Assembly: GCF_001654835.1 (NCBI RefSeq)
Contig: NZ_LXEP01000032.1
Span: 62,001 to 126,000, forward strand
Length of the DNA: 64,000 nt
Origin: Buttiauxella gaviniae ATCC 51604
Lineage (GTDB): Bacteria > Pseudomonadota > Gammaproteobacteria > Enterobacterales > Enterobacteriaceae
Direction: 5' to 3'
The notes beneath the pieces are model-generated. The model was given only the letters and a program-made list of their open reading frames with translations, made no database searches and was not told the DNA's origin. Both the position numbers and the translations under genes were made by a program. Shown here piece by piece: positions 17,942 through 27,642 of the stretch (position 1 is the stretch's first letter; each line of letters starts with the position of its first letter).

Positions 17942-17958
17942 AAGGCACCTTTAGGTGC
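17942..17958. repeat. attL core (17-bp direct repeat)
   Basis: AAGGCACCTTTAGGTGC on the solA side, preceded by AATAATAAAA, which on the minus strand is the T-tract of the ancestral bssS terminator. The same 17 bp recur at 27626-27642. Confidence 0.8.
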
Positions 17959-18031
17959 TTGAATTTGAATGGTAACACACTGGAAAATAAGGGATTTATT
18001 TTCTTCGCGTCCACATCGCGACCACATCACA

Positions 18032-18283
18032 CTATGAAAGCCCTGCATCGCGGGGCTTTTTTTTCATTAAAATCCTGAACCCGGGAGACGTAATTCCATC
18101 GCTTATAATTTCGGTTAGTACCCTTACATTACGCCGCATCATGTCACGCTCATTGTCATTTTTGTATTTCACCTGCATCACATAGCGGTCTGTCATCAGG
18201 ACAGTCAAAGCTGCACGAAACAGAGTACCGAAAAGTGTTATCCGTTCTCTGAGATTTACATGACCCGCAATAAGTAACAGCAT
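18032..18283 (-). CDS. Small protein of unknown function downstream of ogr-like gene 1
   Basis: An 83-residue basic protein that I do not recognise. It starts at ATG 18283, two bases after the TAA of the ogr-like gene, with GGAG upstream overlapping that stop region, so it is very probably translated in an operon with it. Its last residues (KKKPRDAGLS) are encoded by a GC-rich palindrome that is also a plus-strand intrinsic terminator. The N-terminal half is hydrophobic-basic, with no clear domain. It is the element's last gene before attL. Confidence 0.6.
   Translation of the reverse strand: MLLLIAGHVNLRERITLFGTLFRAALTVLMTDRYVMQVKYKNDNERDMMRRNVRVLTEIISDGITSPGFRILMKKKPRDAGLS
18039..18064 (+). 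terminator. Intrinsic terminator reading toward the element interior
   Basis: AGCCCTGC / GCGGGGCT stem with a three-base loop, followed by eight T on the plus strand. It could block transcription entering the element from the left end. Confidence 0.7.
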
Positions 18284-18285
18284 CG

Positions 18286-18546
18286 TTATTTCTCCAGCAT
18301 GTAAGCAATTTGACGGCGTTCACTGCGAGGCAGGACGGCCAGTGATTTTCTTGCGTCATCACTCATTGCAGAGCGTGGCGGTGTAATGTGATATGAAAGA
18401 TAAAGTGAAAATACCAGTGACGCATTGCATTCAACATTACTGCAAATGCAATACAAATTAGAAAAGCCATCACTGACATTTATTGTTGTTTTAATAAATG
18501 CTCTCTCACCACAATCAGGGCATTTAATAATTGTGCTTTGCTTCAT
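18286..18546 (-). CDS. Ogr/Delta-like zinc-finger transcription activator 1
   Basis: An 86-residue protein with CPDCG near residues 9-13, then C-x4-C in CSNVEC, the Cys pattern of the Ogr/Delta family. These proteins bind upstream of P2/P4 late promoters and recruit RNA polymerase through its alpha subunit. It is the ogr next to the attachment site, as in P2. ATG 18546 has GGTGA upstream; a GTG start at 18558 is possible. The intergenic region toward the divergent gene at 18661 carries the palindrome TTATCGAGGTATTGATAA, a candidate repressor operator. Confidence 0.78.
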   Translation of the reverse strand: MKQSTIIKCPDCGERAFIKTTINVSDGFSNLYCICSNVECNASLVFSLYLSYHITPPRSAMSDDARKSLAVLPRSERRQIAYMLEK

Positions 18547-18581
18547 TGTTGTCACCACTAATTATCAAAATAAACAAAGTA

Positions 18582-18599
18582 TTATCGAGGTATTGATAA
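18582..18599. promoter_or_regulatory. Candidate operator (shared palindrome) between ogr-like gene 1 and divergent gene
   Basis: TTATCGAGGTATTGATAA is an imperfect palindrome of TTATCGA and TTGATAA. The first 17 bases recur identically in the cox/C intergenic region (26086), and a perfect version lies upstream of ogr-like gene 2 (20170). Confidence 0.7.
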
Positions 18600-18660
18600 T
18601 ATCGTTATGTTGTTTATAATGCAATCAATGAGTGTTATTTTAATTAATGGAGATGTGGTG

Positions 18661-19092
18661 ATGATTACAATTCAGGACTTACAGGAGCTTTACGAGAAGC
18701 AATATAATAAGAGAAATGAAATTCAGGCGCGGCTGCGCAAAGCTGCTTGTGAGCTTATATGTAACTATCGCCAGTCGCTTGATGTAAATGAAGAGTATAT
18801 TAGTGTGGGGTATTTAACTTACACATCTTTCATCAAGACGCCAGTGGAAAATATTGAGATGAATGAACACAACGCATTGTGTTTTATTCTTTCAACTTTA
18901 CTTGATCCATTAAATCCCGAAGATTCAAATATTTCTATTCAGATTGCTTTACGGGAAATAAAGGGCGGAGACATTGAAGTGATTATCAATGGTGATCAAG
19001 AAACGGTTGTATTAGCTGATGAAGGTAGTAATCGCTATAGCATAACGGTAATCGCAATTAAAACCGCTGTGATGAATGAGATTACACGTTAA
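18661..19092 (+). CDS. Unknown protein, divergent from ogr-like gene 1
   Basis: A 143-residue protein from ATG 18661, with GGAG about 8 bp upstream. It begins with a charged helix (LQELYEKQYNKRNEIQARLRKA) and ends in a beta-rich half (DIEVIINGDQETVVLADEG). I do not recognise it. It is the only plus-strand gene in the left half of the element and shares its promoter region, including the candidate operator, with the divergent ogr-like gene. A strong terminator follows. It is AT-rich compared with the backbone, consistent with acquired DNA. An upstream in-frame ATG at 18607 is less likely. Confidence 0.7.
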   Translation: MITIQDLQELYEKQYNKRNEIQARLRKAACELICNYRQSLDVNEEYISVGYLTYTSFIKTPVENIEMNEHNALCFILSTLLDPLNPEDSNISIQIALREIKGGDIEVIINGDQETVVLADEGSNRYSITVIAIKTAVMNEITR

Positions 19093-19114
19093 CTAAAACA
19101 GCCTGTCAGATTCT

Positions 19115-19138
19115 GCCCGCCTTTGTGCGGGCTTTTTT
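19115..19138 (+). terminator. Intrinsic terminator after the unknown plus-strand gene
   Basis: GCCCGC-CTTTGT-GCGGGC followed by six T, 22 bp after the stop at 19092. Confidence 0.9.
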
Positions 19139-19822
19139 GTGGCCGTCTGACGCCACAGAACGCGCTGTAATCCATTCATTTCTTTCCGACCACTCTTGGT
19201 TTATCTCATACAGACGAACGCGCACAGCGTCGCCCACGCATCGTGACGAAACGAAAGACGTCACGGAAACCGCGCTACACCGCACCCGCCTGCGCTCTTT
19301 GCGTCATAAAGTTTTTTCAGTTGTGGATTTATGCAATTGATACCCGCAGACCGCGCCAGCACTGGTGATTTCGCGTGAAATGCCAATTGCACAAAATGAA
19401 ATGAATTTCAGTAGATTTCAGTTGTGAAGCCTGTTAGCGCCGGAGAAGAAAACACAGAAACCCAGATGTGATGCGGCTTAGCGCCGTTTTACGTGAGAAT
19501 TTATGTCCCACGGAATGCGCCGCAAAAATACCACGTAACAGGCGAAAGCCTTGCCGGGCGCGGCCTGGTGGTTTATGGGGTAACTGAAATCGTTTGCACA
19601 GCAAACTGGGGGACAGGGTATGTTTTGTATAACCGCCATAAGTCTGGCCGCATACAAAACGCACCAGTCAGGCCATGCCCGGCACCATGAATTTCGTGAC
19701 TTTTGGCGGGTCTGGCAATGATTCGCGGTAAGTGATGACTACAACAGTGTCAGAATAAAAGCCAGCATGACTTTCTGGCTATTATTTCTGGTTTCTGGCA
19801 ATAAGGTTGAATGCCTTTTTAT
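19139..19822. other. Long region without a convincing gene; candidate packaging (cos) region
   Basis: About 680 bp in which short frames lack ribosome sites or family features. It contains an inverted repeat CGTGACG (19242-19248) / CGTCACG (19259-19265), a run of ATTTCAG/GAAAT repeats near 19400, and GC-rich tracts near 19550. In P2 the cos site lies between the replication genes and the structural genes; this stretch holds the same relative position between the alpha/ogr side and the att-proximal ogr. I could not match a known cohesive-end sequence, so this is a positional inference. Confidence 0.4.
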
Positions 19823-20119
19823 TTACTGATGAACGCCTGATTCATCTTTTTTTATCATTTCGGTAAGTATTCCAACCAAATCACGCTGCTGGTCGGTATT
19901 AAGATTATTGACAATACTGATAACAGACCTGGGGGATTTTTTTCTAGCATTCACTTTTTTATGCTTATTTGTATGATGCATAAAAGCCACTGTCATGACG
20001 AACTGCGATAAGCATTCCGTATTTATACATCGGCATGAAAGATCAACATCTTTATTATCTTTATGTTCTATAGCAAATACTGGCGCTCTAACTCCACAAT
20101 CAGGACACTTGACCCGCAT
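19823..20119 (-). CDS. Ogr/Delta-like zinc-finger transcription activator 2
   Basis: A 98-residue protein beginning MRVKCPDCG with a second Cys pair (CRCINTEC), the Ogr/Delta zinc-finger pattern, followed by a basic Lys-rich tail (KHKKVNARKK). ATG 20119 has GGGGG 8 bp upstream; the open frame continues to 20287 but without a ribosome site. The perfect palindrome TTATCGAGATGTCGATAA lies 50 bp upstream. Having two Ogr-like genes in one small element is unusual: P4 carries one fused double-domain Delta and P2 a single Ogr. Confidence 0.78.
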   Translation of the reverse strand: MRVKCPDCGVRAPVFAIEHKDNKDVDLSCRCINTECLSQFVMTVAFMHHTNKHKKVNARKKSPRSVISIVNNLNTDQQRDLVGILTEMIKKDESGVHQ

Positions 20120-20169
20120 ATTTATTCCCCCATTAACCCTTTTCGACAGTGCGATTATCATATCGTTGA

Positions 20170-20187
20170 TTATCGAGATGTCGATAA
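20170..20187. promoter_or_regulatory. Candidate operator upstream of ogr-like gene 2 (perfect palindrome)
   Basis: TTATCGA-GATG-TCGATAA, flanked by further TTATC/GATAA half sites at 20156 and 20202. It shares its sequence with the motifs at 18582 and 26086. Confidence 0.72.
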
Positions 20188-20332
20188 CTATCGTGGATTT
20201 TGATAACAGAAAAAGAACGCCTGCCAGAAAAGAAGTGTTCGGGACGGTTGTTAATTTTGTGTTCATTTCTAACACAATCGCAACCATTAAAAACTGTGCG
20301 TAAAATTCTCTGGCGATAAAACCCGGTTTTTA

Positions 20333-20550
20333 CTGTCCCATCTGTACCAGACAGCCATAAAGCCAGATATGGCGCGGCCTGTAGCTGGTACAGATACCTT
20401 TTTTCATATCTGTACCATTTACCCCAAACTGTCCCATTATCGTCGCTTTGGTATAGTTGGTTTAGTTATGGTATAGATAAAATAAATAACTGTACCAGTA
20501 TAACTCTATGTAATTCATGTGATTTGTATGAGGTGGTACAGTTGGTACAG
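20333..20550. other. Iteron array, candidate replication origin
   Basis: Six exact copies of TGGTACAG or its complement lie at 20342, 20386, 20410, 20490, 20534 and 20543. Two TGGTATAG variants (20449, 20469) and two CTGTCCCA variants (20333, 20429) lie among them. Between them is an AT-rich stretch (near 20476-20490). It lies directly downstream of the primase-helicase gene, whose P4 relative binds iterons at its own origin. Origin function is inferred. Confidence 0.65.
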
Positions 20551-20690
20551 ATATAAGTCAGGCTCTGTTGAAAAAACTCTAACCAAAAGGACTTGTTAAA
20601 AATAAGTGGTTATATTGTTTTGTGGGTGTAGCGTGACGAATTGAAGAATCTCGCCGTTCAGGGCTTCTTTTCTGGCGGGGATATGTTGGC

Positions 20691-20717
20691 AAAAAAAAGC
20701 CCCGTCAGATGCGGGGC
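20691..20717 (-). terminator. Intrinsic terminator of the primase-helicase gene
   Basis: On the minus strand GCCCCGCATCTGACGGGGC is followed by eight T, 28 bp after the stop. Confidence 0.9.
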
Positions 20718-20744
20718 GTGTGATGTGTAGCAATGCGGAAAGGT

Positions 20745-23051
20745 TTACCAGAAAGACTCACCAAATACCTGTTCAGGGGCGCTGTTCAGCATACCCGCAA
20801 AGCTACTGCGTATTGCGTCCCAGCCCTCAAAATCTTCCTTCGCCGGAAGCTCGTAGAAAATCCCGCCCCGGTCTGCGCGTCCCACTCGCTCAAGCCCAAT
20901 GGCGGCAAAAATGCGTCCCATCATCCTGCGAGCCGCTGGCGCATTCATGGCAAATCCTTCCTCCTGAAACTGCGCCATAAAACGGGTAACTTCCTCACTG
21001 GCTGACAGCCTCGCCAGCCCACGGAACGGGGACGGGCTGCACAGTTCACGGTACACATAGTTTTCAGCAGGTGGCAGGTTGCTGAGAATTTCCCGGACCA
21101 GCCCGGCAGTGACCGGGGCGCGGCGCGGGTCAAATGTGGAAAGGTCAGTATTCAGCAGGTACGCCATCAGGTGCGATGCGCCATCGTTGTTGATCCAGTT
21201 ATGCAGGCGGTCAAAATAATTCTTCTCCTGCGCATGTTCCGGTGTCGGCTCCAGCACCAGATAACGGCGCTCCCGGATACTGGCGCGTAACACCTGCTCG
21301 CTGTTACTGGCGAATATTAGCCGGGAAAAGTTCGGCATTGGCTCCGGGTCTATGCCCTTACGCTCAAGGTTAATCGTATCCTCACTGATGATCCCTTTCA
21401 GCCTGTCGGCTTCGCGGCTGCTGTTCACGGTCACTTCATCAGCAAACACCATCAGCTTGTTAGCCATTGTGGCGTTAAATTTCCCGGCAATCTGTCCGGC
21501 TCCGTTCACCTGTACGCCGTACTGCCCCATCATTTGCAGAATGGGTTTAACCGTGGTGCCTTTCCCCGTTCCGGGAATGGCTTTCAGCACGATAGCCACA
21601 GACGGTTTTTCATCGGGGCGCTGTACAAGATGCGCCAGCCAGCCCACCAGATATAAAAATGCCTGGTGATTGCCTGCGCAAATAACTTTTTCCAGATGCT
21701 CCAGATAGGGTGACACATCGCCCTCACGGGGCGTGACGCCCCAGCCCGTAAACAGGTTGTAGACCTGCGGCGGGCACTTCTCCGGGCGTGGATAGAATCC
21801 CACACCGTCCGGTTTGTAGGCTTTACCCGGCCATTGCAGCCATGCCGCGCCCTGGCTACGCTTCGCTATCTGCTTTTCATGCAGAAAATAATTGCGAAAC
21901 TGTGACAGCTCTTCAAAAACGTGCGTTTTTCCGTTGACCATGCAGGGCTTCATACTGACCACCCGATGTTTGCCGCCGATAGTCACGTGTGTGTATTTCT
22001 GATTCAGGCGCTCCAGCTCTGTCACCTCCTCATCAGATAACACCACACTGTCACCCAGCGAGCGCCGCGCCTCATGCAGTTTCGTGGCGTTCATTTCACG
22101 CAGGCTGACGGTAAACGCCATTTTAGCGGCCTCGATACCGTGATGCTGGCGATAATCGTCCCAGTCCATCTTCATTTCACCCGGAGGCAGTGCAATCCAG
22201 CCGTTAACGGCCAGCGCGGCCTTTTCCCCGTTCAGCTTCCCGCTGTTGATTTTGGGCTTTCCCCGTTCGTCCAGTTCGCCGGGAAAATGCCAGTCATTAT
22301 CGGCAACGATAATAATTCTGGCCAGTGGCCAGCGTTCACGAACGGCCAGCGCAACGGCTCTGAGATTACCGTCATCGAGCGCGGCAATTATGACGCCCTC
22401 ATGCAGCATTCCGGCGCTTAATGTAGTCGCAACGCCTGTACCAATCAGAATACAGGCAGGCTTCTCCGGCAGGGGGGCAGGCGTCCAGACAGCGCCCTTT
22501 TTCGTGCTTCCGGCCATGATTTTTTTACTGCCATCCGGGGCAATGAACTGAGCGCCGCACACCGCGCCTCTGATATCCGTCAGGGCGAGACACAAGCGAC
22601 CATCAGGCAGAACCGGAATCACGACATGACCCAGACCTTTACGCGCCAGATAAGGTGACGACCCCGGAAGGGTGCTTTTCAGCACACCGGACACCCGCGC
22701 GGCCACATTTTCACTGCCTGCACTGTCTGAGGCTTCTTTTCTGGCAGGCAACGGGCTGACAGCCTGCGTAAAAGCAGCACCGTTCAGCACGTCACCCACA
22801 CGCGACGCGGCTACACCAATATCGACTTTCAGCACCTGTTTCACCAGGTCCAGCCCGTCACCGTGTCCACACTGGTTACAGAACCACGTTCCCCGTTCAT
22901 CTTTATTATCGAAACGGAAACGGTCAGTGCCACCACATGCCGGACAGGCACCGTGTTGTTTATTTTCAGGCACATGAATACCCAAAGAAGATAATAAAAA
23001 CGGCCACCGACCCCGTGATAGGGTAGATACTTCCGAAATTCTCTGTGTCAT
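20745..23051 (-). CDS. P4-alpha-type primase-helicase (zinc ribbon, Toprim-like, DUF5906-type helicase)
   Basis: A 768-residue replication protein (P4 alpha is 777). Domains in order are a zinc ribbon with CPACGG (36-41) and CNQCG (58-62), a Toprim-like fold at about 200-290, and a superfamily-3-like helicase with Walker A GTGKGT (495-500) and an acidic Walker B in MVFADE. Alpha-type proteins bind origin iterons, unwind and prime. Two points are odd. The Toprim glutamate found in alpha (AEGYAT) is replaced by Thr (IGTGVAT), although the ADND aspartates remain. The C-terminal half also resembles P4 alpha less than the N-terminus does. It is preceded by small genes and followed by iterons. Confidence 0.88.
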   Translation of the reverse strand: MTQRISEVSTLSRGRWPFLLSSLGIHVPENKQHGACPACGGTDRFRFDNKDERGTWFCNQCGHGDGLDLVKQVLKVDIGVAASRVGDVLNGAAFTQAVSPLPARKEASDSAGSENVAARVSGVLKSTLPGSSPYLARKGLGHVVIPVLPDGRLCLALTDIRGAVCGAQFIAPDGSKKIMAGSTKKGAVWTPAPLPEKPACILIGTGVATTLSAGMLHEGVIIAALDDGNLRAVALAVRERWPLARIIIVADNDWHFPGELDERGKPKINSGKLNGEKAALAVNGWIALPPGEMKMDWDDYRQHHGIEAAKMAFTVSLREMNATKLHEARRSLGDSVVLSDEEVTELERLNQKYTHVTIGGKHRVVSMKPCMVNGKTHVFEELSQFRNYFLHEKQIAKRSQGAAWLQWPGKAYKPDGVGFYPRPEKCPPQVYNLFTGWGVTPREGDVSPYLEHLEKVICAGNHQAFLYLVGWLAHLVQRPDEKPSVAIVLKAIPGTGKGTTVKPILQMMGQYGVQVNGAGQIAGKFNATMANKLMVFADEVTVNSSREADRLKGIISEDTINLERKGIDPEPMPNFSRLIFASNSEQVLRASIRERRYLVLEPTPEHAQEKNYFDRLHNWINNDGASHLMAYLLNTDLSTFDPRRAPVTAGLVREILSNLPPAENYVYRELCSPSPFRGLARLSASEEVTRFMAQFQEEGFAMNAPAARRMMGRIFAAIGLERVGRADRGGIFYELPAKEDFEGWDAIRSSFAGMLNSAPEQVFGESFW

Positions 23052-23148
23052 AATGCTCTCGCTATTTAGCGTTTTAATCGTGTTATATGCATTCGCTGAT
23101 TTAGCGCCACAAAAACCATTCCAGACAGTTCAACTCCGTGTATATCTT

Positions 23149-23175
23149 GCCCCGTGTGCGACGGGGCATTTTTTT
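23149..23175 (+). terminator. Plus-strand intrinsic terminator inside the minus-strand operon
   Basis: GCCCCGT-GTGCG-ACGGGGC followed by ATTTTTTT on the plus strand. No plus-strand gene precedes it, so it may end a short antisense transcript starting near the primase start. Confidence 0.65.
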
Positions 23176-23374
23176 AATCACGCTCTGAAAGGTCTGTCAC
23201 CAGTGAAACTCTTATCTTTCTGAAACCCCGTTTTGCCGCCGTTTTTAACGCGATATCCCGCGCCGTCAGAATATGACGCGCTGCAATGTAATAAACGGAA
23301 CACACTGGATTTCCTTTGCGACTTACGGATTCCATCACAATTTTAAAATCTCTTAACTGTTCATCATTGAACAT
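23174..23374 (-). CDS. Small protein of unknown function, paralogue of the 23706-23885 product
   Basis: A 66-residue protein. Its C-terminal part (SRKGNPVCSVYYIAARHILTA, then GFRKIRVSLVTDL) aligns with the 59-residue protein encoded at 23706-23885 (NKRGNTVGIHYTLTARCRDSA, then GYQHARITLIREI), so the two are related by duplication. I do not know the family. A GAGGGATG-type ribosome site precedes the ATG at 23374. It lies upstream of the primase gene with a 122-bp gap. Confidence 0.6.
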   Translation of the reverse strand: MFNDEQLRDFKIVMESVSRKGNPVCSVYYIAARHILTARDIALKTAAKRGFRKIRVSLVTDLSERD

Positions 23375-23442
23375 ATTTCATCCCTCTTTATGTGAATAGA
23401 GCCAGCCCGCAGACAAGCGAAACTGGCTTTCTGTAATGTTAT

Positions 23443-23709
23443 TTAACTGTCCTGTGAATCCGCAGGGCGCTCAAGTAATCCCCGTTCGTCCATTTCTTCA
23501 CAAATAAAAATCATGTCTTCACTGATGTAACTGAAAATATCGGCTACCAGTGTCGAATGTAATTTCACTTCCGAAGCGCCATGCAAGTCAGAATGCATAA
23601 ATTCCGAAACACCCATCACACGGTTAAGTTTGCTGATGCATTTTGGGCTTAATGAGTTCTTTTTATTTGTGGCGTGTAGCTGTGTGACACGGCTGCTTTT
23701 ATTTTTCAT
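23443..23709 (-). CDS. Small protein of unknown function
   Basis: An 88-residue protein with a basic N-terminus (KNKSSRVTQLHATNKKNS) and an acidic C-terminal half (SEDMIFICEEMDERG). I do not recognise it. Its ATG overlaps the stop of the upstream 59-residue gene by 4 bp (ATGA), a sign of translational coupling and of a real gene. It is probably an early-operon accessory of the element. Confidence 0.6.
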   Translation of the reverse strand: MKNKSSRVTQLHATNKKNSLSPKCISKLNRVMGVSEFMHSDLHGASEVKLHSTLVADIFSYISEDMIFICEEMDERGLLERPADSQDS

Positions 23710-23885
23710 GCGCGTATCTCCCGGATGAGAGTAATACGGGCATGCTGGTATCCATTTTCAATTGCCTGTCGGATGGCTTCCGCTCGCGCTGAGTCACGGC
23801 ATCTGGCGGTGAGCGTGTAATGAATCCCAACCGTGTTTCCACGTTTGTTAACGGCAAAGCCGGAGGTCTGGAAGGTTTTACGCAT
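23706..23885 (-). CDS. Small protein of unknown function, paralogue of the 23174-23374 product
   Basis: A 59-residue protein starting at ATG 23885 with a strong AGGAGGTG ribosome site. Its start overlaps the end of the Icd-like gene and its stop overlaps the next start, so the three are a tight coupled unit. The fold looks like a short beta-alpha-beta unit (VGIHYTLTAR, then a helix, then ARITLIREI). A second copy of the same domain is the 66-residue product two genes downstream. Confidence 0.65.
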   Translation of the reverse strand: MRKTFQTSGFAVNKRGNTVGIHYTLTARCRDSARAEAIRQAIENGYQHARITLIREIRA

Positions 23886-24474
23886 GGTGCACCTCCTGAA
23901 CAGGCAGGCGACCCGCAAAAGCGGCGATATGATCACGGGCAATCAGGCGACGGGCTGTAGGGTAGTCACTGGCGATGACTTCTTCACGGTGTGGGAGGTC
24001 AGACAAATCAGAACGACGAACGGCCAGAAACAGCCAGGTATATTGCAGATGCGAGGAAACCGGGGTAGTCATCATGATGATGATCTCCTTGTACTTAACA
24101 AAGGAGTCACCACCAGAGTTGCAACGCTCGTGATTGGTGGTGACACTGACAGGGGTTGCAATACCGGCGTACAAGGAGACCGGCCAGCCCGAAAGCTGCC
24201 CTGCCAGCGCCACCATTGATTCTGTGCGGGCATAGGCCGCTGAATATGGGGGTACTGACTTAACGACAATAAAAAAGACGCAATCGGCGTCTACTGTCGC
24301 CTTGTACTGTTCCGGGTTGCAACGCCCGGTTGTCACTGTGGTGACAACCCATAAACTATACCCCTGCTTTGCTAAGCTGTTCAAGCGAAAGTTATCAAAA
24401 TTCATTTGCTTGCCTATTGTTGGGTTATGGTGCATGTTTCGTCCTGTTAGCAGAGAGCGAAGCGCGTATGACAA
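23878..24474 (-). CDS. Ash-like N-terminus fused in frame to Icd-like host cell-division-inhibitor domain
   Basis: A 198-codon open frame with two parts. The N-terminal part contains WPVSLYAGIATPVSVTTNH and RCNSGGDSF, typical of the phage Ash family. The C-terminal 64 residues (MTTPVSSHLQYTWLFLAVRR to GRLPVQEVHHA) resemble Icd-like proteins of P1/P4-type elements, which inhibit host cell division. A strong AAGGAG ribosome site precedes ATG 24075/24072, so the Icd-like domain can also be made alone as an internal product. The true upstream start is uncertain (24474, 24435 and 24405 are candidates). Confidence 0.7.
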   Translation of the reverse strand: MSYALRSLLTGRNMHHNPTIGKQMNFDNFRLNSLAKQGYSLWVVTTVTTGRCNPEQYKATVDADCVFFIVVKSVPPYSAAYARTESMVALAGQLSGWPVSLYAGIATPVSVTTNHERCNSGGDSFVKYKEIIIMMTTPVSSHLQYTWLFLAVRRSDLSDLPHREEVIASDYPTARRLIARDHIAAFAGRLPVQEVHHA

Positions 24475-24547
24475 GGCTTTCTTCAGTGGATGGAACGCGA
24501 CAGGGCTGTGACAACATCCAGGGATAAGAAGAAAGGGCGCGACCCAG

Positions 24548-24575
24548 AACCCGGAGCATTTGCTCCGGGTTTTTT
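24548..24575 (+). terminator. Plus-strand intrinsic terminator opposite the minus-strand operon
   Basis: AACCCGGAGC-ATTT-GCTCCGGG followed by a T6 tract on the plus strand, between the Ash/Icd-like gene and the 90-residue gene. The upstream ~110 bp hold no convincing gene, so a small RNA is possible. Confidence 0.7.
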
Positions 24576-24589
24576 CGTTTCAGCCCCGT

Positions 24590-24862
24590 TTAGATCCAGA
24601 TTTCTTTGCTGTTCCCACCCTGGCTGTACCGCTCAATTCTTTCTTCAAGCTCATCCAGTCTGTTAAGCGTGTTCGCAAGTGGGGTATTATTCCCGGCACT
24701 TGAAGCTGAGAACGTCATAGCCACCCCGCCTCTTGCCTGGCTGAAATTTTTGTTTTCACTCATGGCCTGACCTGCGACCATAATCATATCCATCACGTTA
24801 AAAATATTTTTCTCCGTCACTTCAACGGTTTTACCGTCAATGGTGAGAGTGATTTTTTTCAT
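24590..24862 (-). CDS. Small protein of unknown function
   Basis: A 90-residue protein. It begins MKKITLTIDGKTVEVTEKN, a short beta-hairpin-like start, and ends with a predicted coiled helix (NTLNRLDELEERIERY). Not recognised. It is 25 bp downstream of the 253-residue gene, with AAGGATG-type spacing before the ATG, and is likely cotranscribed with cox and that gene. The C-terminal helix suggests oligomerisation or a protein-binding role. Confidence 0.6.
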   Translation of the reverse strand: MKKITLTIDGKTVEVTEKNIFNVMDMIMVAGQAMSENKNFSQARGGVAMTFSASSAGNNTPLANTLNRLDELEERIERYSQGGNSKEIWI

Positions 24863-24887
24863 TCTTTACATCCTTGTTTACTGTGGT

Positions 24888-25649
24888 TTAGCCTTTGCGT
24901 TTATTAATGACTCTTTCGGCACTGATTAAAATGCTGCTTTCATATTCAGAGCCTGGGAAATCAGTGTAATATTTCCCGAGGTAATCATTAAATTCATAAT
25001 TCAAGGTTTTTTCTGTCTGATTTTTATAGCCGTAGCATGCCGCCAGATTCATCGCAATCGGGTTATATATGCCATTTGATGGTGTTATGTTTTTGATATA
25101 GTCAAACGCAGAGAGATGGACAACCTCTGTAATGCCATCTTGTGAGTTCTCACATTCAATAATTGAACGGTCAATCACTTCACGAATGGCAAAAATAAAT
25201 TTACCTGTGGTATTTTCAGTTCTGGCCGTTTTGTAATGACGAATGGCATTTACATATTCTGAGTAAGTGCGATAAGAAGCGGCTTTAAATATCACAATTT
25301 CATCTTCAAGATTATCACGGGCAATGCTCAGTGTTTTAAGTTTGCTTTCGTGCTTCTCTTTTCTGTCCATCGCTTCGATAATGGCGCTGACATCAGCATG
25401 TGAGTTTACGGCCAGCATTTCCAGTTGATTAATGCTTTCTTCTTCATCTTTAATCAGATTATTAATTTGCACGAGGCTGGAATGCAGCTCTTTAAATTTA
25501 TTGAAGCAAGGTTCATATTGTATTGTTGCTTCACTGGCTTTCTGGTGCGCATTCTTTTCAGCTACATCCAGTTTCTGAATATAAGCGGGTACATCCTGTG
25601 CTCTTACATCAATAAATCGTGAAAATAACTGCTTTGATTCGAAATTCAT
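24888..25649 (-). CDS. Alpha-helical protein of unknown function (candidate helper-interference factor)
   Basis: A 253-residue protein that I do not recognise. Residues 25-160 are predicted helical with coiled-coil character (VQINNLIKDEEESINQLEML, then KHESKLKTLSIARDNLEDEI). The C-terminal 90 residues look mixed. Its size and helical layout are reminiscent of P4 Sid (244 aa, capsid-size determination) and less so of Psu (190 aa), but there is no clear identity and I would not name it. Position: immediately downstream of cox in the rightmost early operon. The base composition is AT-rich. Confidence 0.6.
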   Translation of the reverse strand: MNFESKQLFSRFIDVRAQDVPAYIQKLDVAEKNAHQKASEATIQYEPCFNKFKELHSSLVQINNLIKDEEESINQLEMLAVNSHADVSAIIEAMDRKEKHESKLKTLSIARDNLEDEIVIFKAASYRTYSEYVNAIRHYKTARTENTTGKFIFAIREVIDRSIIECENSQDGITEVVHLSAFDYIKNITPSNGIYNPIAMNLAACYGYKNQTEKTLNYEFNDYLGKYYTDFPGSEYESSILISAERVINKRKG

Positions 25650-25702
25650 TTTTATTCCTTATTTAACAGACCTGATTTTCGTTTTATTCAATACCGGGAT
25701 AG

Positions 25703-25972
25703 TTATCCGGCCATCCCCAGCCACTGTAACCAGCCGTCACGAATTTCTTTCGGTCTGCTGTCATAGGCCATTTTCATGCCTGCGTTCCATGCGGGAAGAT
25801 AAACCCAGTATTCCCCGGCTCTGCCTGTCACCGACGCCGGATCAGTCATTTCGATGACCGGAAGCTTGCCTTTCTCGATCATGCTTTTTACTGCTTTTTG
25901 ACTTTTACCGATAACCCTGGCGAATTCCTTGTACGGAAGTACGTCACTGACGCTGACAAGTGTGTTATCCAT
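25703..25972 (-). CDS. cox: P2 Cox-like excisionase / repressor
   Basis: An 89-residue protein that aligns end to end with P2 Cox (91 aa). Shared stretches include GKLPVI.MTDP, SVTGRAGEYWVYLPAWN and SRPKEIRDGWLQWLG. The N-terminal half is a winged-helix-like DNA-binding domain (PYKEFARVIGKSQKAVKSMIEKG). In P2 Cox directs excision with Int and represses the C promoter. It is divergent from the C-like repressor, and the shared region holds candidate operators. It is probably the first gene of the leftward early operon. Confidence 0.88.
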   Translation of the reverse strand: MDNTLVSVSDVLPYKEFARVIGKSQKAVKSMIEKGKLPVIEMTDPASVTGRAGEYWVYLPAWNAGMKMAYDSRPKEIRDGWLQWLGMAG

Positions 25973-26085
25973 CTGTTACCCTCATTTGTTGGGATGCTGA
26001 TAAATGCTTGTAGTTGCCATCAGAGGTTGTTAAAGGCTGGCAATGATTAGTATTTAGCGCATTAATTATCGAAAACAGCATATGA

Positions 26086-26103
26086 TTATCGAGGTATTGA
26101 TAC
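26086..26103. promoter_or_regulatory. Candidate C operator in the cox/C intergenic region
   Basis: TTATCGAGGTATTGATAC, with an additional half site TTATCGA at 26066-26072 about two helical turns away. The motif recurs upstream of both ogr-like genes. It abuts the C start codon (GTG 26105), so it could serve autoregulation. Confidence 0.7.
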
Positions 26104-26104
26104 T

Positions 26105-26404
26105 GTGTCAATCGACATTTCCGAAAAACTGAAACTCATGCGCGAATCAGAACGAATGAATCGCAGGCAACTTTCTGATCTTGTGGGGATACCTTATTCA
26201 ACCCTGAGTTATTACGAATCAGGGCGAACAGAGCCGCAGGGAGGGGTGTTAATGAAGCTGCTACAACACCCGCGCTTCACCAAGTACACGCTGTGGTTTA
26301 TGACCGAAACAACTGCACCTGAATCCGGACAAATTGCACCGGCTCTCGCACACTCTGGGCCTGGCGAAACAACGTCGCAGCATTACGACCAAAAGACTGG
26401 CTAA
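26105..26404 (+). CDS. C: P2 C-like lysogeny repressor
   Basis: A 99-residue helix-turn-helix repressor with exactly the length of phage P2 C and clear similarity along its length: LMRESERMNRRQLSDLVGIPY in the HTH, STLSYYESGRTEP, KYTLWFMT and APESGQIAPALAH. P2 C keeps early lytic genes off as a dimer. It starts with GTG 26105. It is arranged divergently from cox and upstream of int, as in P2. Conservation outside the HTH suggests a P2-type dimer, while its operators may have changed specificity. Confidence 0.92.
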   Translation: MSIDISEKLKLMRESERMNRRQLSDLVGIPYSTLSYYESGRTEPQGGVLMKLLQHPRFTKYTLWFMTETTAPESGQIAPALAHSGPGETTSQHYDQKTG

Positions 26405-26515
26405 CAATTAACCACTGTTGCGGGTGCTCGTCATGCCATGTAACAAAATGTGACACACGAGAGCAGTTCTTTACCAAATGTAAACAAAATCTAAACGATT
26501 TCGGAGGGCTTCAAC

Positions 26516-27553
26516 TTGTCTGTTAAGAAGCTTGATGATGGTCGTTATGAAGTGGACGTAAGACCTGCCGGACGCAAGGGAAAACGTGTTCGCAGGAAAT
26601 TTATTAAAAGAAGTGAAGCGCTGGCCTATGAAAAATACATTCTGACAAGTCAGCACGAAAAAGAATGGCTACCCCGGCCTGTTGATAATCGGTCAATGTC
26701 CACTCTGCGTGATGAATGGTGGCGCATACGTGGCCGGGTGACAGAACATGGCCTGAGTTATCAGGGCAAAATAAACAGGTTCATTCTGCTTATGGGGGAT
26801 TTATGCGCTTTCCAGATTAACAGTGAAGTCATCACCAGATACCGTGTAGAGCGGATTGCCAGTGGTATTAAGGCAAGCACTGTTAATCGGGAGTTATATA
26901 CGCTTTGTGGAATGTTTACCTGTCTCAAAGAGTCCGGAATATTCAGCGATGAAAATCCATTCAGGGGATATAAGCGACTGAAAACTGAAAATACCGGAAT
27001 GAGCTTTCTCAGTACGGGTGAAATAACCCGACTACTGGGGATGCTGGAAGGCGATAATTACCGCCTTGCTACCCTTTGCCTGAGTACCGGGGCAAGGTGG
27101 GGGGAAGCCCGAAGCCTGAGACGTGAGCATATTATCCATAACCGAGTGCATTTCCTGAAAACAAAAACGGGTCAGGCGCGTGTGGTTCCTGTTTCGGCGG
27201 ATGCTGTTACGAGTATTGTGCATGGGGATTTGCCCTCTGGCCTGTTGTTCCCCTCCGCAAATTACAACCTGTTTCGGTCAATACTCAAAACAGCCAAACC
27301 AGATTTACCGCGTGGTCAGGCAAGTCACGTTCTGCGGCATACTTTCGCCACACACTTTATGATTAACGGAGGAAACATTATTACTCTGCAACGCATACTG
27401 GGGCATGCAAGGATTGAGCAGACGATGGCTTACGCACATTTTGCGCCGGAGTATTTGCAGGATGCTATAGCGTTCAACCCACTTCGTGGGAAGCTCTCAC
27501 CACCAGAAAAAGGGGAGTGTCCACATAATGTCCACACTCCAGCGTCTGATTAA
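26516..27553 (+). CDS. int: P2-type tyrosine integrase
   Basis: A 345-residue site-specific recombinase. Catalytic residues are visible: Arg194 (TGARWGEAR), His271/Arg274 (SHVLRHTFATH), His297 (LGHA) and the nucleophile Tyr306 (MAYAHF). The N-terminus (VKKLDDGRYEVDVRP) is the arm-binding domain type found in P2-like integrases. It starts at TTG 26516 with GGAGGGC upstream. The gene ends about 70 bp before attR, and its 3' end carries two TGTCCACA repeats that may be Int arm sites. Confidence 0.93.
   Translation: MSVKKLDDGRYEVDVRPAGRKGKRVRRKFIKRSEALAYEKYILTSQHEKEWLPRPVDNRSMSTLRDEWWRIRGRVTEHGLSYQGKINRFILLMGDLCAFQINSEVITRYRVERIASGIKASTVNRELYTLCGMFTCLKESGIFSDENPFRGYKRLKTENTGMSFLSTGEITRLLGMLEGDNYRLATLCLSTGARWGEARSLRREHIIHNRVHFLKTKTGQARVVPVSADAVTSIVHGDLPSGLLFPSANYNLFRSILKTAKPDLPRGQASHVLRHTFATHFMINGGNIITLQRILGHARIEQTMAYAHFAPEYLQDAIAFNPLRGKLSPPEKGECPHNVHTPASD
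27518..27536. promoter_or_regulatory. Two TGTCCACA direct repeats, candidate Int arm-binding sites
   Basis: Copies at 27518-27525 and 27529-27536, 11 bp apart (about one helical turn), inside the 3' end of int and about 90 bp from the attR core. Degenerate copies (CGTCCACA, CGACCACA) lie near 18009-18027 on the other side of the element. My recollection of the P2 Int arm consensus is the complement, TGTGGACA. Confidence 0.55.
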
Positions 27554-27625
27554 GGCTTTTAGATGCTTTAAGAGCCAGTGCTCATGCAGTGAACCCGCAT
27601 GAACACTGTATTTTATACCTTTGAC

Positions 27626-27642
27626 AAGGCACCTTTAGGTGC
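27626..27642. repeat. attR core (17-bp direct repeat)
   Basis: AAGGCACCTTTAGGTGC, followed by CTT so that the copy next to bssS is a perfect 9-bp-arm palindrome. On the minus strand it is the stem of the bssS terminator, now followed by element sequence GTCAAAGG instead of a T-tract. Confidence 0.8.

Follow-up and report, generated by a model that had tools for sequence, protein, structure and literature searches.

The window analysed here is a stretch of 64,000 nucleotides from Buttiauxella gaviniae ATCC 51604 (contig NZ_LXEP01000032.1), whose genome assembly (G000) comprises 5.07 Mb in 133 contigs. Between solA and bssS, this window carries a 9,684-bp element with one additional att core, bounded by a 17-bp direct repeat, AAGGCACCTTTAGGTGC, at 17942-17958 and 27626-27642, both copies being identical. 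The limits proposed in a first-pass annotation made from the letters alone (17942..27642) are exact, since the direct repeat ends there. The main open reading frames (ORFs) of the element are intact. Read from right to left, they comprise the integrase, the C repressor, the divergent cox, orf253, orf90, ash, an epsilon-like gene, orf66 and alpha, followed by an iteron cluster, ogr2, a non-coding stretch with a cos-like site, orf161 and, near the left att, ogr1. Pfam and PHROGs profile matches confirmed the first-pass description of int, C and cox in P2 order with an ogr-like gene beside the other attachment site. A P2-like prophage resides in the same genome and is referred to below as the resident prophage. 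The features that carry the argument are the following:

17942..17958, no strand: attL core, 17-bp direct repeat within the terminator-like palindrome of the solA/bssS intergenic region
18286..18558, minus strand: ogr/delta-like activator 1 (ogr1), 90 aa as listed, alternative ATG at 18546; PF04606, 38.8 bits (cut-off 26.3)
18582..18598, plus strand: C-operator-like palindrome, exact copy, between ogr1 and orf161, overlapping the promoter-like site 18593-18620 (11 of 12)
19246..19422, no strand: cos-like packaging site, 177 bp, non-coding, with the invariant core CTACACCGCACCCGCCTGC at 19275-19293
19823..20119, minus strand: ogr/delta-like activator 2 (ogr2), 98 aa from an internal Met; phrog_603, 7.6e-8; PF04606, E 0.0056, below cut-off
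20170..20186, plus strand: third C-operator-like palindrome, 3/17 mismatches, upstream of ogr2, overlapping the promoter-like site 20184-20157 (minus strand)
20342..20550, no strand: iteron cluster, CTGTACC/GGTACAG, 6 copies; candidate replication origin or crr
20745..23051, minus strand: alpha-type primase-helicase, 768 aa; Zn_Ribbon_Prim, Toprim_3, DUF5906
23443..23709, minus strand: epsilon-like helper-derepression protein, 88 aa; PF25738 (Derepression family), 50.7 bits (cut-off 27)
23878..24474, minus strand: ash/cI-ORF homologue with an Icd-like C-terminus, overlying the immunity RNA; PF10554, 93.1 bits; NF033153, 53.2 bits
24133..24220, minus strand: C4/CI-type immunity RNA; RF01695, 79.9 bits (gathering 45)
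24169-24176, minus strand: seqB of the immunity RNA, with targets seqA 24300-24307 and seqC 24084-24094 (8 and 11 nt)
24271..24348, minus strand: isrK-like leader upstream of the C4 RNA, with a terminator-like hairpin at 24276-24292; RF01394, 54.2 bits (gathering 50)
25703..25972, minus strand: cox (excisionase/repressor); PF10743, 133.6 bits; 75% identical to Cox of the resident prophage
26086..26102, plus strand: C-operator-like palindrome TTATCGAGGTATTGATA at the C/cox switch, exact, overlapping the promoter-like site 26111-26082 (minus strand)
26105..26404, plus strand: P2-type C repressor, 99 aa; phrog_147, 133.1 bits
26516..27553, plus strand: P2-type integrase, 345 aa, TTG start; PF24624 and PF00589; 57.5% identical to P2 Int
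27626..27642, no strand: attR core, 17-bp direct repeat

The insertion site is well documented in the genus. The solA locus is present in 11 of 12 genus genomes, own genome counted, and in all ten other congeners that have it the flanks adjoin and the element is absent, as judged from BLAST coordinates; the junctions printed for six of these ten show a single att core or a variant thereof. The nearest congener (G006) has an empty site with both flanks 99% identical to those of the window. Because the sites are empty in congeners and the G006 flanks are 99% identical, these alignments indicate that the integration into solA-bssS is real and probably recent, loss in G006 being the other way to read the absence.

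The replication and immunity block is of P4 type. P4 (NC_001609) has homologues of alpha (31% identity over residues 1-318), of epsilon (33% over 78 aa), of ash (47% over 129 aa of the P4 cI ORF) and of ogr1, with alpha, epsilon and ash standing in P4 order. P4 likewise has repeats beside alpha. The first-pass annotation had described P4-alpha replication genes with an iteron array; alpha and the iterons stand, but the copies are dispersed in direct and inverted orientation rather than arrayed in tandem, and the count of six was made without a shuffle control. A second ash-like DNA match lies elsewhere in the same genome (G000:C11:15827-15956, 77%), and the home-built profile set gave no match in the 20 kb fetched around it (L027).

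The C4/CI-type RNA within this block scores higher than its P4 counterpart, which the same C4 model places inside the cI ORF at 74.9 bits. In P4, the seqB octamer pairs with one upstream and one downstream target, the three segments being known as seqA, seqB and seqC. The seqB of the window differs from that of P4, and both targets are altered in step: the upstream one reads GTACAAGG and the downstream one GTACAAGGAGA, with the RNA positions unchanged. SeqB and both targets are matched in four of the five elements tested (the window, P4 and the related loci L109 and L087). This co-variation argues that the predicted RNA lock is functional, with a specificity of its own that is unlike P4's.

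The right end of the element is of P2 type. Its C protein is 68% identical to Peduovirus C and 62% identical to C of the resident prophage. The integrase gave no blastp match to P4 Int at E 0.1, and Cox matched P4 Vis only at 27% identity and E 0.053. The AlpA family had no match in the element ORFs scanned (15 with Pfam, 14 with PHROGs), and a P2-type cox stands in its place. It had been proposed that a P2 C repressor takes the place of RNA-based immunity here; this does not hold, because the element carries both, so C is no substitute for the C4 RNA with its matched targets.

A palindrome at the C/cox switch recurs exactly between ogr1 and orf161 and, with three mismatches, upstream of ogr2. 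We infer that C (or Cox) binds these three predicted operators, and the presence of a palindrome at both ogr promoters suggests C control of the late activators as well. The palindrome scan did not find this motif in the cox-C region of the resident prophage; over the 60 kb around that prophage it returned four matches with 3-4 mismatches, none of them in the cox-C region. Since C is only 62% identical and the cox-C region of the prophage is without the palindrome, the element and the resident prophage are probably heteroimmune. The suggestion that the element shares the immunity of its likely helper is therefore borne out for the type of repressor but not for its specificity.

The two ogr/delta-like genes differ in strength of assignment. 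The product of ogr1 is 31% identical to P4 delta over 39 aa. The ORF of ogr2 as listed has 154 aa and reaches 20287; its start is probably the internal Met 57, giving 98 aa, because the promoter-like site and the position of the Ogr domain fit. In P2, ogr lies beside att. In the resident prophage, ogr (L023:16820-17140) directly follows the portal gene and precedes gene A, the cos-like site being near att, and in the record of Cronobacter phage ESSI-2 an ogr-like match adjoins the portal gene.

The 177-bp cos-like site connects the element with complete phages. It is 89% identical to G000:C5:79951-80127 in the same genome, which adjoins a 565-aa tail gene of the resident prophage and lies between this gene and int/att. 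This prophage has full-length genes for terminase, portal, capsid, scaffold, small terminase, GPA, ogr, cox, C and int, and seems to be split, with one part closing contig C5 and the other opening C6, in the yegQ-yegS region (yegQ, yegS and the tail gene being named from their sequences). The site also occurs, at 73-74% identity, in ESSI-2 and in Yersinia phage vB_YenM_324; the ESSI-2 record likewise has it between tail gene and int/att. Furthermore, the linear ESSI-2 record ends inside the core, and both of its ends bear CTACACCGCACCCGC (15 bases). A 401-bp query around the site found matches in 61 of 295 family genomes, a figure that includes weak and short matches, among them matches to a terminator-like stretch outside the core, and the same query was matched in 68 of 5,426 E. 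coli genomes. In an alignment of 68 sequences, none chosen by the core motif (loci picked by an exact 18-mer were excluded), conservation is 99% within the 19-bp core and 61% in the remainder, the rows having been found by BLAST, which favours conserved cores. The 177-bp stretch is a probable cos and, being shared, suggests that the helper is an ESSI-2-cos phage, for instance the resident prophage.

Related elements were gathered through alpha genes of at least 550 aa, found by alpha or cos searches, and their neighbourhoods of 11 kb were scanned with home-built hidden Markov models (HMMs), those for terminase and portal being seeded from the resident prophage alone. The locus counts are not prevalence figures, because the HMMs are home-built, the loci were chosen by alpha or cos and many of them are cut by contig ends. 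Among 90 distinct alpha loci, 22 bear a cos-like site within 11 kb, and none has a terminase or portal like those of the resident prophage within that distance. A P2-family major-capsid homologue accompanies 18 of the 22 cos-bearing loci and 20 of the 90 overall, L062 and L079 having the capsid gene without a cos-like site. A capsid match is missing from four cos-bearing loci: the window element, L140, L214 and L221. In L140 and L214, the end of the contig or locus falls close to alpha. Two capsid homologues that were checked belong to PF05125. The 20 satellite capsids are at most 49% identical to five phage capsids, and a quick FastTree tree places the phage capsids in one clade apart from them (rooting not tested). 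P4-type satellites that bear the ESSI-2-type cos usually have one such capsid homologue (about 334 aa), encoded downstream of up289, a protein of 284-340 aa that is all-helical in modelling, and no recognised terminase or portal; capsid-bearing examples include L087:4151-5155, L095:15758-16750, L291, L294, L296 and others. The satellite capsid homologue is possibly a Ccm-like way to small heads, by analogy with staphylococcal islands.

The P2-type C is found in only three of these elements: the window, a Buttiauxella metagenome-assembled genome (L095/L291) and Intestinirhabdus alba (L109/L301). The element of the metagenome-assembled genome is the best alpha relative (75% identity), and has a phrog_147 C and a Cox-like phrog_575 excisionase; C and int of the I. 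alba element are known from HMM matches. All three have the C4 RNA, and the window element is the only one of them without the capsid pair. A weak C-like match beside alpA in L312 was set apart from these three. The combination of P2-type C with P4-type alpha is thus rare in the collected set but recurrent. Of the layout described in the first-pass annotation, the search returned P2-type int and C with P4-type alpha in two relatives. The entry S.Kent 1-2-1 (OR850886) was considered as a satellite and rejected, its ORFs showing a fragment with P2-like tail genes. In G006, a partial alpha-like protein (G006:C26:4376-6058, L028; 55% over 433 aa) belongs to another element. Judged from its ORFs, that element further contains an AlpA-like gene, an integrase that is unrelated and, as in capsid-forming islands, a seeming protease-capsid fusion of 644 aa.

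The remaining ORFs of the element bear on head formation and cargo:

18607..19092, plus strand: orf161, cos-proximal cargo candidate; phrog_5091; start probably at 18661, from the L095 homologue
23174..23374, minus strand: orf66, small gene with homologues in L095 (56%) and L109 (51%)
23706..23942, minus strand: orf78, small ORF overlapping ash, known as an ORF only; three matches in the collected ORF set, own copies included
24590..24862, minus strand: orf90, orphan; no Pfam match, best PHROG E 0.088
24888..25649, minus strand: orf253, orphan, predicted all-helical; single-sequence model, pLDDT 48

In the ORFs scanned, capsid, terminase, portal, tail and lysis families gave no convincing match and P2 gene A (GPA) gave none, which bears out the reported absence of structural, terminase and lysis genes. 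Holin matches of orf253 (E 0.017) and of 18032-18283 (E 0.046) were too weak and were taken as noise. P4 Sid and Psu had no blastp match in the element at E 0.1, and the hhalign probability of orf253 against Sid was 0.1%, a comparison of single sequences with little power. The orphans orf253 and orf90 sit where relatives carry the up289-capsid pair. Because no Sid, Psu or capsid homologue was recognised, the element may fill full-size heads as a trimer, or orf253/orf90 may resize the head. Three copies of 9,684 bp make 29,052 bp, close to the 28,765 bp of ESSI-2 and the 29,180 bp of vB_YenM_324; trimer packaging in normal heads is possible, PICMI elements too being packaged as concatemers (PMC10803314), and the length match may be a coincidence.

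Comparison with described systems places the element beside P4 rather than within its standard membership. The P4-like core has been listed as int, psu, delta, sid, alpA, epsilon and alpha, with alpA as the component most often missing (PMC8628076). Alpha, epsilon/ash and delta (as single-domain genes) are present in the element, as is an integrase, albeit of P2 type; alpA, sid and psu are not among its recognised genes. A CI RNA with matched targets (RF01695) and a cos common with the helper are further P4-like traits found at the level of sequence. The lack of alpA, sid and psu and the P2-type integrase make it a variant of the P4-type satellite and not a standard P4-like member. With the P4 family (NC_001609; PMC8628076) it shares the order of alpha, epsilon and ash/cI with the CI-type RNA, a delta/ogr-type activator, iterons and a cos shared with a P2-group helper; P4 differs in its own integrase and AlpA/Vis where the element has P2-type int, C and Cox, in having sid and psu, in one double-length delta instead of two single-domain ogr genes, and in its cos, that of the element being of ESSI-2 type. 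The roles of alpha, epsilon, delta and a shared cos are known for P4 and P2 (PMC8628076, PMC9122126).

Of a P2-like prophage, the element has int, C and cox, with Int at 57.5% identity to P2 and C at 68% identity to Peduovirus, a Cox of the same Pfam family and the divergent C/cox switch; gene A and the structural and lysis genes were not recognised, and the operator-like motif is repeated at the ogr promoters, unlike in the P2/Peduovirus module. The ESSI-2-type Peduoviridae share the cos-like site, whereas they are complete phages of 28.8-29.2 kb and would be the likely helper group, not relatives. Both L095/L291 and L109/L301 share the P2-type int and C, P4-type alpha, ash, C4 RNA, ogr, cos-like site and orf66, and L095/L291 also a Cox-like gene (examined there only) and an orf161 homologue; they differ in having a P2-family capsid homologue and a 340-aa upstream protein. 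The Ccm of SaPIbov5 (PMC8569155) offers an analogue of the capsid-bearing relatives, a cos-type satellite with a homologue of the helper capsid; however, SaPIbov5 is a staphylococcal, unrelated satellite, and the window element has no capsid homologue. PICMI (PMC10803314) similarly has no recognised capsid-remodelling gene, and its concatemer packaging is one model for the window element, although it belongs to Vibrionaceae, with virulent helpers and different genes. In the open-access literature, with bioRxiv preprints and most subscription papers lying outside it, neither a P4-type satellite with P2-type C/Cox nor one with a P2-family capsid homologue was recognised, which is weak evidence of novelty.

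Taken together, this evidence makes it highly probable that the element is an integrated, structurally intact P4-type satellite with a P2-type excision and lysogeny module. The first-pass annotation had seen such a satellite-like combination, and in this it was right; its term 'P2-derived' is misleading, because the core is P4-type and P2 type is limited to int-C-cox. That the element might be a deletion derivative, a formerly complete P2-like prophage stripped of its structural genes but retaining int-C-cox and ogr, is barely credible. Its P2-type int, C and cox (57.5% to P2 Int, 68% to Peduovirus C) would suit that history, and a cos-like site and an ogr gene occur in the resident prophage too, but it is largely refuted by the block of alpha, epsilon, ash, C4 RNA and iterons, which is of P4 type and follows P4 order. 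P2 gene A is absent from the ORFs scanned, the best alpha relative is likewise without a recognised terminase or portal, and the zero count of terminase or portal genes like those of the resident prophage among the 90 alpha loci, many of them cut by contig ends, speaks against a simple deletion derivative. A dead or decaying satellite, satellite-like in organisation with its mobility lost, is unlikely. The lack of a recognised capsid-size gene and the orphan state of orf253 and orf90 would agree with decay; the intact main ORFs, the identical att copies, the matched RNA targets and a C4 score above that of P4 speak against it, and absence from the nearest congener with 99% flanks fits recent gain (or loss there).

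The shared 177 bp might also be some other regulatory or recombination site, and this is very unlikely. The assignment as cos was made here from sequence, and P2's own cos is placed elsewhere, between A and Q (PMC9122126). Against this stand the ESSI-2 record, which stops within the core and whose two ends share 15 bases, the matches in 61/295 family genomes (weak and short ones included) and the 22/90 alpha loci with the site, part of which were fetched because of it.

For the satellite reading, we infer how the regulation, packaging and transfer of the element would proceed. Lysogeny would be held by two locks, one of RNA and one of protein. The CI-type RNA would terminate the alpha/epsilon operon early, while the C protein would repress cox and, via the operator copies, the ogr-like genes and orf161. 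Upon entry or induction of an ESSI-2-cos helper, Cox would excise the element, alpha would replicate it from the iterons, epsilon would inactivate the helper repressor (derepression) and the Ogr-like proteins would turn on the helper late genes. The helper terminase would then cut the element cos for packaging, either as a trimer in full-size heads or in heads resized by orf253/orf90.

The fullest form of this proposal is tentative, a serious possibility somewhat short of probable. It holds that replication and helper derepression are under the guard of an antisense CI RNA that has a specificity of its own; that a P2-type C, which differs in immunity from the resident helper, keeps excision and the two late activators in check through copied operators; and that the element belongs to a P4-type ESSI-2-cos lineage usually equipped with its own P2-family capsid homologue, the capsid pair being here replaced by orf253/orf90 or made dispensable by trimer packaging. 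Several observations weigh against the satellite reading and the regulation proposed for it. Three palindromes at up to three mismatches compare with a mean of 0 in 100 first-order Markov shuffles, yet this control is not independent because the motif was chosen after its repetition was seen. The three copies overlap the three top-scoring promoter-like sites among the 18 of the element, an overlap that is not independent either, because the palindrome letters partly form -35-like hexamers, and the total of 18 against 15.3 is near chance. A search of L095 and L109 did not reveal the repeated operator layout. The RNA targets of L095 do not match its seqB, and the C4 target model scores 25.7 in the window, below its gathering value of 46.7. 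The ogr2 product scores under the Pfam cut-off. The Ogr site is given as TGT-N12-ACA, which is not enriched in the element (3 against 2.4 expected). The search did not detect it at those element promoters that were tested; it is likewise missing from the single late-promoter region of the resident prophage tested, so the check says little. The completeness of the resident prophage is unproven because it is split over two contigs. When 40 random segments were scored for shared 18-mers as a control, the majority gave 14-16, one gave 17 and two gave 18/18 like the real region, these two presumably overlapping operator copies.

The RNA immunity of P4, the textbook satellite, and the protein immunity of P2 are usually presented as alternatives. 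Here, a single 9.7-kb element combines the two; its RNA specificity differs from that of P4, and its activators, which would take over the helper late genes, appear to be wired to the protein lock. This raises the question of whether a satellite gains by sensing the state of its helper through a helper-type repressor. Furthermore, the capsid-bearing relatives suggest that capsid gene capture, known from cos-type SaPIs, may have occurred in the P4 group too.

Finally, the neighbourhood of the cos-like site may serve for cargo. Among 295 genomes of the order, orf161 has a match in its own genome only; in the gathered loci its homologues lie near a cos-like site in the satellite L095 (36%, L095:8900-9349) and in L135 (35%, L135:10260), a locus with a prophage tail gene. 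This distribution makes cargo exchange possible there, so that the cos-proximal slot may pass genes between helper and satellite. A cos-proximal cargo slot has been described for P2/P4 (PMC9122126). In the resident prophage, a 253-aa gene lies by the cos-like site on the yegQ side (L025:18985-19746, G000:C5) and is a candidate defence gene, matching PADLOC PDC-S31 at E 1.2e-30.

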